In this document: piece after piece, positions 53,628 to 59,047 of the stretch | Layout: every line of letters starts with the position of its first letter | How positions within the stretch are numbered: the first letter of the stretch is position 1 | Source of the DNA: Firmicutes bacterium HGW-Firmicutes-7 | GTDB lineage: Bacteria; Bacillota; Clostridia; Lachnospirales; Vallitaleaceae | Direction of reading: 5' to 3' | Assembly (NCBI GenBank): GCA_002841375.1 | Contig: PGZO01000019.1 | Span: 1-64,000 of the forward strand | Length of the DNA: 64,000 nt | Position numbers and translations under genes: made by a program | The notes under the pieces: model-generated | Database searches by the model: none | Told to the model about the DNA's origin: nothing | Seen by the model: only the letters and a program-made list of their open reading frames with translations

Positions 53628-54707
53628 ATGAATCAATTAATAGTAAATACAAAAAACAAAAAATATAAAATAGTAATCAATAGTAATTTTGATGGATTAT
53701 ATCAAGAGATTACTAAACTTAATATTCCAATTAGTAAAATTGCAATTATAACCGACGATATTGTAGATCCTTTATACTCAGGTCAAGTAATAGACCACTT
53801 AAAGAAATCCTACCCAGAGATTTCTAGTTTTTCCTTTATCCACGGGGAAAAAAGCAAGAATTTAAATACAATTAGTGATATATATGCCTTCATGATAGAT
53901 CAAAAGCTAGACAGGAAATCTCTTGTAATAGCATTAGGTGGAGGAGTTGTCGGGGATATGGCTGGGTTTGCTGCAGCTACATATATGAGGGGTATTAAGT
54001 TTATACAAGTACCAACATCCCTATTATCACAAGTTGATAGTAGTGTAGGTGGTAAAACTGGTGTTGATTTTAATGGATACAAAAATATAGTGGGTGCCTT
54101 TTATCAACCAGAACTTGTATATATTAATACGAGCACTTTAATTACGTTGCCTAATAAGGAGTTTAACTCAGGTATGGCAGAAGTTATTAAACATGGACTG
54201 ATCTTAGACCAAAATTATTATAATGAAATTAAAAATAACATTGACAAAATACTTGACTTAGATGATGAACAATTACAAATATTAATTTATAACTCTTGTA
54301 AAATAAAAAGCCAAATTGTCTCAGAAGATGAAAAGGAAGAAGGGTGCAGAGCGCTTCTTAACTTTGGACATACAGTAGGACATGCTGTGGAACGATTAAA
54401 GAATTTTGAATTATTACATGGTGAATGTATTTCAATTGGGTTTATTGCAGCACTATATATTAGTAACCAATTAGGTGAAATAACAGAAAGTACCATTGAT
54501 AATGTAAAAAAACTTCTTGAAACATTTGAACTTCCGACATCAGTTGCTGGGTTAGATCCAACTGATATATATCATGAAATGTTTCATGATAAAAAAACCT
54601 CAAATAATCAATTGAATTTTATTCTATTAACCGACATAGGCAATTCTTATATTGATAATTTAGTTGAAAAAGAAACTGTTATGAATGCATTACAAAAAAT
54701 TACTTAA
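53628..54707 (+). CDS. aroB: 3-dehydroquinate synthase
   Basis: Second step of the shikimate pathway: converts DAHP to 3-dehydroquinate using NAD and zinc or cobalt. The 359-residue protein has LGGGVVGDMAGFAAATYMRG, the PTSLLSQVDSSVGGKTGVD motif, and metal ligands Glu in AEVIKHG, His in GHTVGHAVE and His in LLHGECISIG. ATG 53628 is chosen: AAGGTG lies six bases upstream; the GTG at 53619 is part of that site. It is inserted between the division block and lspA; no other shikimate gene is present. Confidence 0.96.
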   Translation: MNQLIVNTKNKKYKIVINSNFDGLYQEITKLNIPISKIAIITDDIVDPLYSGQVIDHLKKSYPEISSFSFIHGEKSKNLNTISDIYAFMIDQKLDRKSLVIALGGGVVGDMAGFAAATYMRGIKFIQVPTSLLSQVDSSVGGKTGVDFNGYKNIVGAFYQPELVYINTSTLITLPNKEFNSGMAEVIKHGLILDQNYYNEIKNNIDKILDLDDEQLQILIYNSCKIKSQIVSEDEKEEGCRALLNFGHTVGHAVERLKNFELLHGECISIGFIAALYISNQLGEITESTIDNVKKLLETFELPTSVAGLDPTDIYHEMFHDKKTSNNQLNFILLTDIGNSYIDNLVEKETVMNALQKIT

Positions 54708-54729
54708 AATAATTACGGGTGGTATCAAT

Positions 54730-55221
54730 ATGTGGATTGAAATAGTGGCAATAGGCCTCTTGATTGGATTAGATCAATTAGTAAAATATTTGACTGTAAT
54801 ACATTTACAAGGGAATAGCCCTTATGTGATTATTGATGGCGTATTTCAATTAACCTACGTCGAAAATAGCGGTGCTGCTTTTGGAATGCTACAAAATCAA
54901 AGAACATTTTTCTTGATTTTTACGTTAATTGTCATTGGGCTTGTTTTAGTTTATTACTTAAAGATACCAAAAACAAAAAGGTTCACTATACTTAGAATAA
55001 CGGTGATTTTATTTTTCGCTGGAGCATTAGGTAACTGGATTGATCGACTTAGATTATCCTATGTAATAGACACCTTTTATTTCAATTTAATAAATTTCCC
55101 TGTATTTAACGTTGCAGATTCCTATGTAGTCGTGTCAACTTTTGTTTTTGCTTATTTGATATTGTTTTACTATAAAGAAAATGAATTTGATTTTATTAAA
55201 TCAAAAGCTAAAAAGGAATAG
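54730..55221 (+). CDS. lspA: Lipoprotein signal peptidase (signal peptidase II)
   Basis: Membrane aspartyl protease that removes signal peptides from lipoproteins. The 163-residue protein has four helices, with motifs GLDQLVKY, NSGAAFGML, GNWIDRLRLSYVIDTF (first catalytic Asp) and FNVADSYVV (second Asp). ATG 54730 has GGGTGG seven bases upstream; the longer frame begins inside aroB. It precedes rluD by one base, the usual lspA-rluD pair. Confidence 0.95.
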   Translation: MWIEIVAIGLLIGLDQLVKYLTVIHLQGNSPYVIIDGVFQLTYVENSGAAFGMLQNQRTFFLIFTLIVIGLVLVYYLKIPKTKRFTILRITVILFFAGALGNWIDRLRLSYVIDTFYFNLINFPVFNVADSYVVVSTFVFAYLILFYYKENEFDFIKSKAKKE

Positions 55222-55222
55222 T

Positions 55223-56146
55223 ATGGAAACACTTAATTTAATTGTAGACGAAAATTTTATCAATACGCGTATTGATAAATATCTCACAGAACATGTAACT
55301 GAACATACAAGATCTTATTTACAAAAGCTCATTACAGATGAAGCAGTACTAGTTAATGGAAAATTAGTTAAGGCAAATTATAAACTAAGATTAAATGATC
55401 ATATTACATTAAATATTCCTGATGTCGTTGCGTTAGATGTTATTGCTCAAGATCTGGATTTAAATATCGTGTTTGAGGACAGTGATTTTCTTATTATTAA
55501 CAAACCTCAGAATATGGTTGTACACCCAGCCCCAGGACATTATGAGGATACGTTAGTAAATGGTGTGTTATTCCATTGTAAGGATGAGCTTTCTGGCATA
55601 AATGGCATATCACGACCAGGAATAGTTCATAGAATTGATAAGAATACCTCTGGCTTACTTGTGATTTGTAAAAATGATAAAGCACATGTTAGTATTGCAG
55701 AGCAGTTAAAGAATCACACGATAACTAGAAAATACGAAGCCATTGTCTATAATAATATTAAAGAAGATGAAGGTATTATTGATGCACCAATCGGTAGACA
55801 TCACACAAATAGGCAACTAATGGCTATTAATTATAAAAATGGTAAGGCAGCTATTACGCATTATCGTGTTATTGAAAGATTGAATAACCAGTATACTTAT
55901 GTTGAACTAACTTTAGAAACAGGTAGAACGCATCAAATACGTGTTCATATGGCAAGTCTTCATCATCCATTACTGGGCGATGATATTTATGGACCAAAGA
56001 ACAAAAAAGCACCTGTTAAGCTATTAGGACAAGTATTGCATGCAAAAACGCTTGGCTTCATTCACCCATCAACTGGTGAGTACGTGGAATTTACATCTGA
56101 TTTACCAGACTATTTTGAAGAGCTACTAAATAAACTGAGAAATTGA
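55223..56146 (+). CDS. rluD: Pseudouridine synthase RluD-like
   Basis: Forms pseudouridines in 23S rRNA. An N-terminal S4 domain (about 12-75; NTRIDKYLTEHV) precedes the catalytic domain with HRIDKNTSGLLV, where the Asp is the nucleophile, and LETGRTHQIRVHMA. 307 residues. ATG 55223 has AAGGA five bases before; the upstream start lies within lspA. Synteny with lspA and pyrR is typical of Firmicutes and supports RluD/YlyB. Confidence 0.93.
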   Translation: METLNLIVDENFINTRIDKYLTEHVTEHTRSYLQKLITDEAVLVNGKLVKANYKLRLNDHITLNIPDVVALDVIAQDLDLNIVFEDSDFLIINKPQNMVVHPAPGHYEDTLVNGVLFHCKDELSGINGISRPGIVHRIDKNTSGLLVICKNDKAHVSIAEQLKNHTITRKYEAIVYNNIKEDEGIIDAPIGRHHTNRQLMAINYKNGKAAITHYRVIERLNNQYTYVELTLETGRTHQIRVHMASLHHPLLGDDIYGPKNKKAPVKLLGQVLHAKTLGFIHPSTGEYVEFTSDLPDYFEELLNKLRN

Positions 56147-56167: not shown

Positions 56168-56689
56168 ATGAAAATATTAATGGATGATAAGGCAATTAAC
56201 AGAGCTATAACACGTATTGCACATGAAATTATTGAAAACAATAAAGGTGTTCAGGATCTAGTGATTTTAGGAATTAAAACTAGAGGCGTTCCTCTTGCTA
56301 AATGCATTATCAAGAAAATTAAATTGATTGAAAATGTAGATGTTCCATTAGGTATATTAGACATTACTTTTTATAGAGATGATTTAAATCACAAATCAAT
56401 TCATCCAATATTAAATAATAAGTTAAATGTTGATGTTAAAAACAAGACGGTAATTCTCGTGGATGATGTTGTATTTACAGGAAGAACATGTCGAGCTGCT
56501 TTAGATGCAGTTATGGCTGCTGGAAGAGCAAGAAAGGTTCAATTTGTCGCATTAGTTGATCGAGGTCATAGAGAGTTGCCACTAACCCCTGATTATGTAG
56601 GTAAAAACTTACCTACTTCAAAAAATGAAGTAGTACACGTTAGGCTTGTGGAAACAGACGGAGAGGATATTGTAGTAATCACGAATTGA
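56168..56689 (+). CDS. pyrR: PyrR bifunctional RNA-binding regulator / uracil phosphoribosyltransferase
   Basis: Senses UMP/UTP and PRPP and attenuates pyr mRNA in Firmicutes. The 173-residue protein has a PRTase fold with the PRPP loop VILVDDVVFTGRTCRAAL, the LGIKTRGVPLA and LDITFYRDD segments, and the C-terminal LVDRGHRELP motif, all typical. AAGGTG site. Although it lies just before pyrB, no PyrR-binding attenuator is visible in the 77-bp gap before pyrB, so its target may be elsewhere. Confidence 0.95.
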   Translation: MKILMDDKAINRAITRIAHEIIENNKGVQDLVILGIKTRGVPLAKCIIKKIKLIENVDVPLGILDITFYRDDLNHKSIHPILNNKLNVDVKNKTVILVDDVVFTGRTCRAALDAVMAAGRARKVQFVALVDRGHRELPLTPDYVGKNLPTSKNEVVHVRLVETDGEDIVVITN

Positions 56690-56766: not shown

Positions 56767-57708
56767 ATGGTATTTAATAATAAGCATTTTTTAGATTTAA
56801 AGTCATTATCTGAACAAGAAATTCATTATATTCTTAATACAGCACAGCAAATGAAATACACGATTACCTCAAGTAAGGCAGCAGCTGTAGCGCCTCATTT
56901 AAAAGGTAAGACTGTAGCAACTTTATTTCATCAAGAAAGCTCAAGGAGCAAATTATCTTATGAGCTCGCAGCATATAATTTAAGCGCAAAAGTTATTAAC
57001 TTAACAACTTCGAGACAATTTCAGAGTGGTGAATCCCTTAAAGACATCGGAAGAACGGTGGATCAAATGGGCGCAGACTTTATTGTACTTAGACATCCAG
57101 TAGCTGGTGGCCCTCATTACCTTGCTAAGTTTGTTGATGCTTCAGTCATTAATGCAGGCGATGGGCTAAATGAAAATCCAAGTCAAGCATTAATAGACTT
57201 GCTTACAATACTGGAAATGAAGAAGATTTTTAAAGGCTTAAAGGTAGTTATGATTGGAGATATCGAACATAATAGAGTTGCTAAGAGCAATATTTGGGGT
57301 TTAACTAAACTTGGTGCAAAGGTTTCAATTGCTGCCCCACCTACATTAATTCCATCTAGAATTGAAGAGCTTGGTGTAGAAGTATATAATTCTATCTCTG
57401 AGGCTATTATTGATGCTGATGTTATTATGACAATGAAAATCCAAAGTGAAAGACAAGAGAGAAACCTACTGCCTTCTCTTAACGAATATAAGAAGTTGTA
57501 CAAATTAGATGTGAATAGGCTAGAGTATGCAAAAGAAGATGTAATTGTTATGCATCCTGGTCCGATTAATAGAGGAATAGAAATTTCATCAAAAGTAATC
57601 GATGGGGATTGCTCCCTAATTGACAGACAGCAAATAAATGGTGTTGCGGTTAGAATGGCATTATTCCATTTGCTTTCAAAGAAAAGTGGGGTGTCTTACA
57701 ATGATTAA
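56767..57708 (+). CDS. pyrB: Aspartate carbamoyltransferase-like protein with altered active site
   Basis: By fold and synteny the catalytic chain that joins carbamoyl phosphate to aspartate. NAGDG, RQQINGVAVRMA and HPGPINRG are conserved, and 313 residues fits. But several normally invariant residues differ (Escherichia coli numbering): the STRTR loop reads SSRSK (58-62), Lys84 is Ser87 (FQSGES), His134 of HPTQ is Asn137 (NPSQ), and Arg229 is Lys224 (MKIQSER). These bind carbamoyl phosphate and aspartate. It overlaps pyrC by 8 bp. It could be a diverged but functional enzyme, an enzyme on another substrate, or inactive. No regulatory pyrI gene is seen. Confidence 0.8.
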   Translation: MVFNNKHFLDLKSLSEQEIHYILNTAQQMKYTITSSKAAAVAPHLKGKTVATLFHQESSRSKLSYELAAYNLSAKVINLTTSRQFQSGESLKDIGRTVDQMGADFIVLRHPVAGGPHYLAKFVDASVINAGDGLNENPSQALIDLLTILEMKKIFKGLKVVMIGDIEHNRVAKSNIWGLTKLGAKVSIAAPPTLIPSRIEELGVEVYNSISEAIIDADVIMTMKIQSERQERNLLPSLNEYKKLYKLDVNRLEYAKEDVIVMHPGPINRGIEISSKVIDGDCSLIDRQQINGVAVRMALFHLLSKKSGVSYND

Positions 57709-59047
57709 CACATTGCTAATAAAAAATGGTACGATTTTTACACATGATAAAACCATTTATAATATGGATTTATTAATTGAAAACGATAAAATTGCAGCAA
57801 TAGAAGCAAATATTATACCTGGCGATAACTGGCCAGTTATTGATGCAACAGGATTATATATTATTCCTGGTCTTGTTGATATGCACTGTGATGTATGTGA
57901 GCCTGGCTACGATTATAAGGAAGACTATGAATCAGCAGGAGAAAGTGCAATTAATGGTGGATTTACAACGATTACAAACAACCCTAATACGGATCCAGTA
58001 ATTGATAATAAGGCCATCGTTGAATATGTTTTAACGAAATCTAAAAAAGAATGTCCTGTAAACATTTACCCCTATGGTTCCCTTACAAAGGGTTGCGCAG
58101 GCAATGAAATTGCTGAAATTGGAGAAATGCAAATAGCTGGTATTGTTGCAGTTTCAGATGGAGATTATCCAATTCAAAATCCGGCCTTAATGAAAACAAT
58201 TTTAAACTACTGTAGTATGTTTGATATGCCGGTAATTCTTCATTGTGAAGATATAGCGCTATCTAATGGACATGGTGTTAATGATGGGTTAATCTCAACT
58301 CAATTAGGACTTATTGGGGCACCAGAAGTAGCAGAAACTGTTGCACTATCAAGAAATATCCTTTTAGCTGAAGCGTATAATGTTCATGTTCATGTTTGCC
58401 ATGTATCTACAAGACGTTCTTTGGACTTAATTAGAAGTGCCAAAAGAAATGGTGTGAAAATTACAGCAGAAACTTCGCCACAATATTTTACTATGGATGA
58501 AAGCTCGATATTAGACTTTAATTCATATGGAAAAGTGAACCCTCCACTTAGGACAAAGGAAGATGTACAAGCGATCATTAAAGGTATCGGTGATGGTACC
58601 ATTGATGTTATTAGCTCAGACCATAAACCAGATACGATTGATTCTAAAGATGTAGAGTTTGAATTAGCTTCCTACGGTATTTCATCCTTTGAAACAGCTT
58701 TTTCATTAGCTTATACTAAGTTAGTAGATTCTAAAGTAATTAATATGGAACAACTTGTTCAGAAGATGTCTTATAAACCGGCACATATATTGGGTTTATG
58801 TAAAGGTAGACTCTGCCTGGATGGTGTCGCAGACTTAACTATTTTTGATCCAAATGCATCCTTTTTAGTTGAAGCAAGAAACTTTAAATCTAAAGCAAAT
58901 TACTCACCTTATGATGGAATGATACTTAAGGGCTTAGTTAAATATACAATTGTTGGCGGAAAAAAATACAATGCAAATACAGATACCATAGTTTTTCCAA
59001 CAGCGGCTTATGATACAGACGAATTTGAAAGCAATAATCATGATTAA
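57701..59047 (+). CDS. pyrC: Dihydroorotase-like amidohydrolase with altered active site
   Basis: A 448-residue class I dihydroorotase-type amidohydrolase. Metal residues His62, Asp153, His181, His234 and Asp307 are retained, as are NPPLR and PNTDPV. The usual HxHxR motif is H62-C-D64-V-C66: the second metal His is Asp and the substrate-carboxylate Arg is Cys. SPHH reads SPQY (259-262) and TDHAPH reads SDHKPD (306-311). Changes concern substrate binding, as in the overlapping pyrB. ATG 57701 with GTGGGGTG upstream is chosen over a longer frame inside pyrB. It is dihydroorotase by family, but the real substrate needs testing. Confidence 0.8.
   Translation: MINTLLIKNGTIFTHDKTIYNMDLLIENDKIAAIEANIIPGDNWPVIDATGLYIIPGLVDMHCDVCEPGYDYKEDYESAGESAINGGFTTITNNPNTDPVIDNKAIVEYVLTKSKKECPVNIYPYGSLTKGCAGNEIAEIGEMQIAGIVAVSDGDYPIQNPALMKTILNYCSMFDMPVILHCEDIALSNGHGVNDGLISTQLGLIGAPEVAETVALSRNILLAEAYNVHVHVCHVSTRRSLDLIRSAKRNGVKITAETSPQYFTMDESSILDFNSYGKVNPPLRTKEDVQAIIKGIGDGTIDVISSDHKPDTIDSKDVEFELASYGISSFETAFSLAYTKLVDSKVINMEQLVQKMSYKPAHILGLCKGRLCLDGVADLTIFDPNASFLVEARNFKSKANYSPYDGMILKGLVKYTIVGGKKYNANTDTIVFPTAAYDTDEFESNNHD

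Follow-up and report, generated by a model that had tools for sequence, protein, structure and literature searches.

Paired paralogues of aspartate carbamoyltransferase and dihydroorotase with degenerate active sites, co-inherited at the lspA-rluD locus

In a window of 64,000 nucleotides, the whole stretch of DNA analysed here, two adjacent genes resembling pyrB and pyrC had been singled out in an initial annotation because residues that are normally invariant in the active sites of aspartate carbamoyltransferase (ATCase) and dihydroorotase (DHOase) are replaced in both products. It had been suggested that the two proteins co-diverged, perhaps towards a different substrate, an altered multi-enzyme assembly or a joint loss of activity. 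This raises the question of whether the replacements are real, whether they occur together in other genomes, and what two proteins changed in this way could still be doing for the cell.

The gene pair and its substituted residues

The two genes, which we call pyrB' and pyrC', follow the gene order aroB-lspA-rluD-pyrR in the window. The lspA gene (54685..55221, + strand) and the gene for an rluD-type pseudouridine synthase (55181..56146, +) are the syntenic anchors of the locus, and pyrR, of the bifunctional pyr attenuator / uracil phosphoribosyltransferase family (56168..56689, +), lies directly 5' of pyrB', as in the ancestral operon order. The first gene of the pair, pyrB' (56767..57708, +), encodes a degenerate ATCase paralogue of 313 aa, and the second, pyrC' (57701..59047, +, start ATG at 57701), a degenerate type-I DHOase paralogue of 448 aa. 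Both reading frames are open and full-length and they overlap by 8 bp (57701..57708, +), as originally annotated. Overlaps of 4-17 bp were seen in most relatives where this was measured, and the arrangement suggests translational coupling of the two genes. The uraA permease gene, present between pyrR and pyrB' in most members of the window's family, is absent from this interval (window:56690-56766) in this genus, which is represented by the window's genome (G000) and a congener (G001). A promoter scan was at chance level, with 15 found versus 15.7 expected.

By Pfam and NCBIfam models PyrB' scores as an aspartate carbamoyltransferase (NCBIfam PRK00856, 330 bits, cut-off 263) and PyrC' as a dihydroorotase (TIGR00857, 362 bits, cut-off 279). 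Since both pass the curated family cut-offs, annotations of many Clostridia probably list them as ordinary pyrB and pyrC, and the wrong gene may be given a pathway step in metabolic models. The nearest solved relatives are the ATCases of B. subtilis, S. aureus and Aquifex for PyrB', and the dihydroorotases of B. anthracis and Aquifex for PyrC'. AlphaFold models (mean pLDDT 84.8 for PyrB' and 81.7 for PyrC') were compared with known structures using Foldseek: the PyrB' model has the ATCase fold, with TM values of about 0.8-0.9 against ATCases, and the PyrC' model has the DHOase fold, matching the Aquifex and B. anthracis enzymes. For both models the best matches included chains of the Aquifex DHO-ATC complex.

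To place the substitutions, PyrB' was aligned with the PyrB proteins of E. coli and B. subtilis, and related sequences were collected by a search of 96 genomes together with six named loci, giving 55 PyrB' and 52 usable PyrC' sequences. The window's protein reads S52 S53 R54 S55 K56, S84, R105, N134, Q137, R167, K229 and Q231. The reported Ser for Lys84, Asn for His134 and Lys for Arg229 were all recovered; of the reported SSRSK for STRTR, the serines at 53 and 55 stand in place of T53 and T55, but Lys56 carries no weight, STRTK being the normal reading in canonical PyrB of this order. Where the carbamoyl-phosphate signature consists of S-T-R-T, H134-P-x-Q137 and Lys84 from the neighbouring chain, PyrB' therefore presents SSRS, N134 and S84, with Q137 kept as in the two references. 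Asn134 is found in 55/55 of the related proteins, and Ser84 is limited to this genus within the window's subclade, its relatives having R, K, Q, N, E and others. Among the aspartate-binding residues, R167 is kept in 55/55 and R229 is changed to lysine in the window and in 27/55, and Q231, kept in the window, is lost in about half of the relatives. The residues R54 and R105 are each kept in 54/55; one locus (L055, in G024) has the sole PyrB' in which both are gone, Arg54 being replaced by S and Arg105 by H. From the roles described for the active-site residues (PMC4581275), carbamoyl transfer should be severely impaired once H134, K84 and the T53/T55 pair are gone. A literature search found no mutants at His134, Lys84 or Arg229.

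For PyrC' the reference and the residue numbering were those of B. anthracis PyrC. The substitutions previously noted were all reproduced by this alignment, HxDxC for HxHxR as HCDVC (H61D, R63C), SPQY for SPHH, and SDHKPD for TDHAPH (H308D), and one more had been overlooked, Asp151 being replaced by Gly (VSDGD for FTDDG). Thus among the alpha-zinc ligands H59 is kept and H61 and D151 are changed, the substrate residues R63 and H308 are both replaced, and H178, H231 and D304 are kept. The single catalytic (alpha) zinc in the type-I DHO of Aquifex is bound by His61, His63 and Asp153 (PMC3880350), and 51/52 PyrC' have lost the counterparts of two of these ligands. Residues R63 and D151 are absent from all 52 sequences and H61 from 51 of them; position 61 is variable (E, D, N, T, Q, S) and Arg63 is without one constant replacement. 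Without two of the three alpha-zinc ligands and R63, dihydroorotase chemistry should be abolished.

Alignment to characterised enzymes thus shows that canonical residues are changed in both proteins. Misalignment could be ruled out, as the canonical residues are nowhere else in the two proteins and the differences fall in the same columns in 49 genomes (29 + 20). So could sequencing error, as identical residues are found in the sister genome (PyrB' 98% and PyrC' 91% identical) and across a wide clade. Neither are the substitutions a product of chance, because H134N and the loss of R63 and D151 are without exception among the sequences collected.

Distribution and origin of the pair

A scan of genome contigs gave mostly canonical PyrB from many phyla among the matches listed, and placed at least six named loci in the clade of PyrB'. 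In quick-mode trees PyrB' forms one clade (35/35 rows, SH-aLRT 100), and so does PyrC' (34/34 rows, SH-aLRT 100); the membership of the two clades matches, and PyrC' adjoins PyrB' in 53/55 loci. The proposed co-divergence of the two proteins is therefore supported, and the changes do occur together. In the window's subclade (20-21 genomes) they are close to uniform, with S53, S55 and N134 in 21/21 and K229 in 18/21 PyrB', and with H59, H178, H231 and D304 kept and D152 present in 20/20 PyrC'. Decay of PyrC' is further on in the sister subclade, where Gly replaces D304 in 30/32 and more than half have lost H178 and H231.

The fixed H134N motif was used as a signature, in the form of a DNA pattern for AGDGxNENP with the reversed pattern as control. 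Of 392 genomes of the order, 85 carried this signature and none the reversed control, and the signature was seen in 0/188 sampled genomes of the class outside the order; among 196 genomes drawn from the class, it occurred only in two clade members within the order. Upstream of PyrB' in the 55 loci we found rluD in 46, lspA in 44, uraA in 16 and pyrR in 15. Among these 55 loci, pyrR and uraA were seen next to the pair only in the window's family and its closest relatives.

The nearest canonical PyrB proteins include some from other Clostridia whose genes lie in complete pyr operons at this lspA-rluD site, for example Bacillota MAG.222 (L153; lspA-rluD-...-pyrR-uraA-pyrB-pyrC-pyrF-carA-carB) and Caldicoprobacter oshimai (L158; lspA-rluD-pyrR-pyrB-pyrC-pyrF-carB). 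The canonical pyrBC of the window's own order branch elsewhere in the trees, although support for the exact sister node is moderate. Because the nearest canonical relatives lie in complete operons at this site, the tree and the synteny together suggest that the pair is probably a relict of an ancestral lspA-rluD-pyrR-uraA-pyrB-pyrC operon. The two canonical operons share with the pair the chromosomal site, the gene order and the nearest PyrB sequences; they differ from it in that pyrF and car genes follow, in having His134 and HCHLR, and in carrying a PyrR-binding RNA element (RF00515; L153:2826-2975 and L158:4855-4943), whereas at the degenerate loci just pyrR-(uraA)-pyrB'-pyrC' or pyrB'-pyrC' remain. 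When the pyrB'-pyrC' loci were scanned for the PyrR RNA with one covariance model, none was seen at the Rfam gathering threshold, and none was seen upstream of the pair in the window even with a relaxed threshold. The pair is also a clear example from nature of an enzyme module of two genes that was probably repurposed jointly and in its ancestral place, and the operons with canonical motifs that persist at the same site in related bacteria provide the comparison for the repurposed module.

Canonical enzymes and selection on the pair

A second, canonical pyrB and pyrC were found in the window's genome on contig 3 (G000:C3), in an operon pyrB-pyrC-pyrF-carA-carB-pyrK-pyrD-pyrE with canonical residues, and their products are 49% and 45% identical to PyrB' and PyrC' respectively. 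More widely, 79 of the 85 signature genomes have a conventional ATCase elsewhere, of either the pyrBC type or the PyrB-PyrI type (G296 was counted as PyrB-PyrI though without a PyrI match), and in the first set of genomes the catalytic motifs of the PyrB-PyrI ATCase were read as intact. No other ATCase was found in six of the 85 (G002, G045, G053, G142, G196 and G312), three of which are less than 90% complete. Because the pair is maintained intact in these 85 of the 392 genomes, with a working set present as well in nearly all of them, it has probably taken on a new role outside classical pyrimidine synthesis.

Many relatives have canonical operons without pyrB beside pyrC, and PyrB' was considered as their only ATCase; this was ruled out by the intact-motif PyrB-PyrI found in those genomes. 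Examples are the loci L065-L068 and L076 (G016, G005, G003, G013 and G014), where a PyrB-PyrI ATCase elsewhere replaces the missing pyrB. A separate case is the 1.5 Mb genome G053 (G053:C19:26987-28763, L270), in which PyrB' is kept, PyrC' is broken and no other ATCase was found; this organism is possibly a pyrimidine auxotroph.

It could be argued that PyrB' and PyrC' are a low-activity isozyme pair of ATCase and DHOase in which the substitutions are tolerated. The HMM score above the NCBIfam ATCase cut-off would agree with this, as would the retention of Lys84 in several relatives and of Arg54, Arg105 and Arg167 in nearly all, and the six genomes, some incomplete, without another ATCase found. 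However, His134 is lost from every PyrB', the alpha-zinc ligands and Arg63 are lost from PyrC', and a conventional ATCase is kept in nearly all of the genomes, and we consider such an isozyme pair very improbable.

We then compared rates of substitution using pairs of genomes that all came from the window's part of the clade. Between G000 and G001, PyrB' is 98.4% identical with a dN/dS of 0.013 (canonical PyrB, 92.3% and 0.044), and PyrC' 90.1% identical with a dN/dS of 0.064 (canonical PyrC, 90.4% and 0.046). Over all these pairs dN/dS ranged from 0.013 to 0.086 for PyrB' and, where estimable, from 0.04 to 0.21 for PyrC', similar to the canonical copies. Both proteins are under purifying selection. 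We also asked where the losses fall, taking columns nearly invariant in canonical sequences (101 of them for PyrB) and counting a column as lost when retention was below 90%. In PyrB' 9/12 active-site columns were lost versus 14/37 others, a moderate result by the Fisher test (p 0.044; rank test p 0.006), and in PyrC' 9/9 versus 21/52 (p 0.0008; rank test p 0.0003). Both proteins have thus lost residues preferentially at their active sites.

These data largely refute, for the window's part of the clade, the idea that the genes are non-functional relics drifting to loss, the chance of which we regard as nearly negligible. The active-site decay is variable among families and PyrC' is broken in G053, as would be expected of relics, but the low dN/dS, near that of the canonical copies, and the frames that are open in nearly all of the 55 loci, from many families, are against it. 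Of the three suggestions made at the outset, a joint loss of classical activity is the best supported, as long as it is not taken to mean decay, since what is observed is purifying selection.

Possible roles of the pair

The best explanation, to which we give a probability of about 0.48, is that a relict pair has been kept as co-inherited and probably physically associated pseudoenzymes, while the canonical ATCase and DHOase make the pyrimidines. What is kept, namely the arginines that bind phosphate and carboxylate, the coupled genes and the remainder of the fold, suggests an assembly that binds a ligand and does not carry out classical catalysis. PyrB' and PyrC' would still assemble as a complex of the ATCase-DHOase type, in which Arg54, Arg105 and Arg167 together with Asn134 may bind a phosphate or carboxylate ligand, such as carbamoyl phosphate, aspartate or a similar compound, with the ligand held and not efficiently turned over. 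Perhaps the complex senses or buffers this ligand and so regulates pyrimidine metabolism or uptake, and a regulatory role of this kind seems the most likely because of the ancestry of the pair and its neighbours pyrR and uraA in part of the clade. In its specific form, in which two pseudoenzymes make up a regulatory complex that senses carbamoyl phosphate, aspartate or some related metabolite, the proposal is a tentative one. Two results weigh against the explanation: at the loci scanned no PyrR element reached the Rfam threshold, although canonical operons at this site have one, and in families further from the window's pyrR and uraA did not accompany the pair.

Alternatively, the pair may have acquired a new function as enzymes, PyrB' carbamoylating another amine or transferring another group and PyrC', with a rebuilt metal site, acting on the product. 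The changes are fixed and not random in the window's subclade (S53/S55/N134, the PyrC' ligands and D152), the anion-binding arginines at 54, 105 and 167 are kept, and a two-step route would account for both genes being kept together. Against this, the STRT-like motif and HPxQ, conserved across the transcarbamylase superfamily including ureidoglycine transcarbamylase (UGTCase; PMC4016543), are lost in PyrB', Arg63 has no constant substitute and position 61 is variable, the sister subclade loses further metal ligands (D304, and in many members H178 and H231), and genes of a new pathway travelling with the pair were not seen at the loci. We find this reading unlikely overall, an altered enzyme being possible, judging from the residues, chiefly in the window's subclade, where four of the six PyrC' metal ligands are invariant.

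A known precedent for ATCase paralogues with another substrate is that of the 'pseudo-ATCases', which retain STRT and HPTQ; one of them has been shown to act as a UGTCase (PMC4016543). Like PyrB', they are found beside an authentic ATCase in one genome (PMC4016543), but they have an altered R229-Q231 and HPLP and purine-catabolism neighbours (PMC4016543). The motif pattern of PyrB' is the reverse. The neighbours of PyrB' are lspA, rluD, pyrR and uraA, and a purine-catabolism context is absent.

Another alternative is that PyrC' and/or PyrB' serve as structural or inhibitory partners of the canonical enzymes, in mixed assemblies with the cell's own PyrB or PyrC. The ATCase of Pseudomonas, an active ATCase paired with an inactive DHOase, requires the inactive chain for assembly (PMC7053772), and the locus appears, from its gene content, to resemble this class A2 arrangement in having pyrB beside a degenerate pyrC and a separate canonical dihydroorotase elsewhere (G000:C3). 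In Pseudomonas, however, the adjacent ATCase chain is the active ATCase of the cell, whereas here it is itself degenerate and a second, canonical ATCase is present. The folds also match the Aquifex aeolicus DHO-ATC dodecamer (class A1; PDB 3D6N, 4BJH), which shares both of them with PyrB' and PyrC', but both chains are active in that complex and PyrC' is without two of the three alpha-zinc ligands. In addition, the pair persists although two distant types of canonical ATCase (pyrBC and PyrB-PyrI) occur in the clade, and a dedicated scaffold for this enzyme is less likely because the partner would differ so much; we consider a partner role of this kind quite unlikely. An inactive DHOase partner of an active ATCase is therefore already known, but our searches of open-access literature turned up no description of an ATCase and a DHOase that are both degenerate and conserved as a pair.

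The most decayed PyrC' proteins are those of four loci (L261, L266, L272 and L280), which read, for example, DIGCKIFENG for DVHVHLREPG and have zero metal ligands remaining; their frames stay open.
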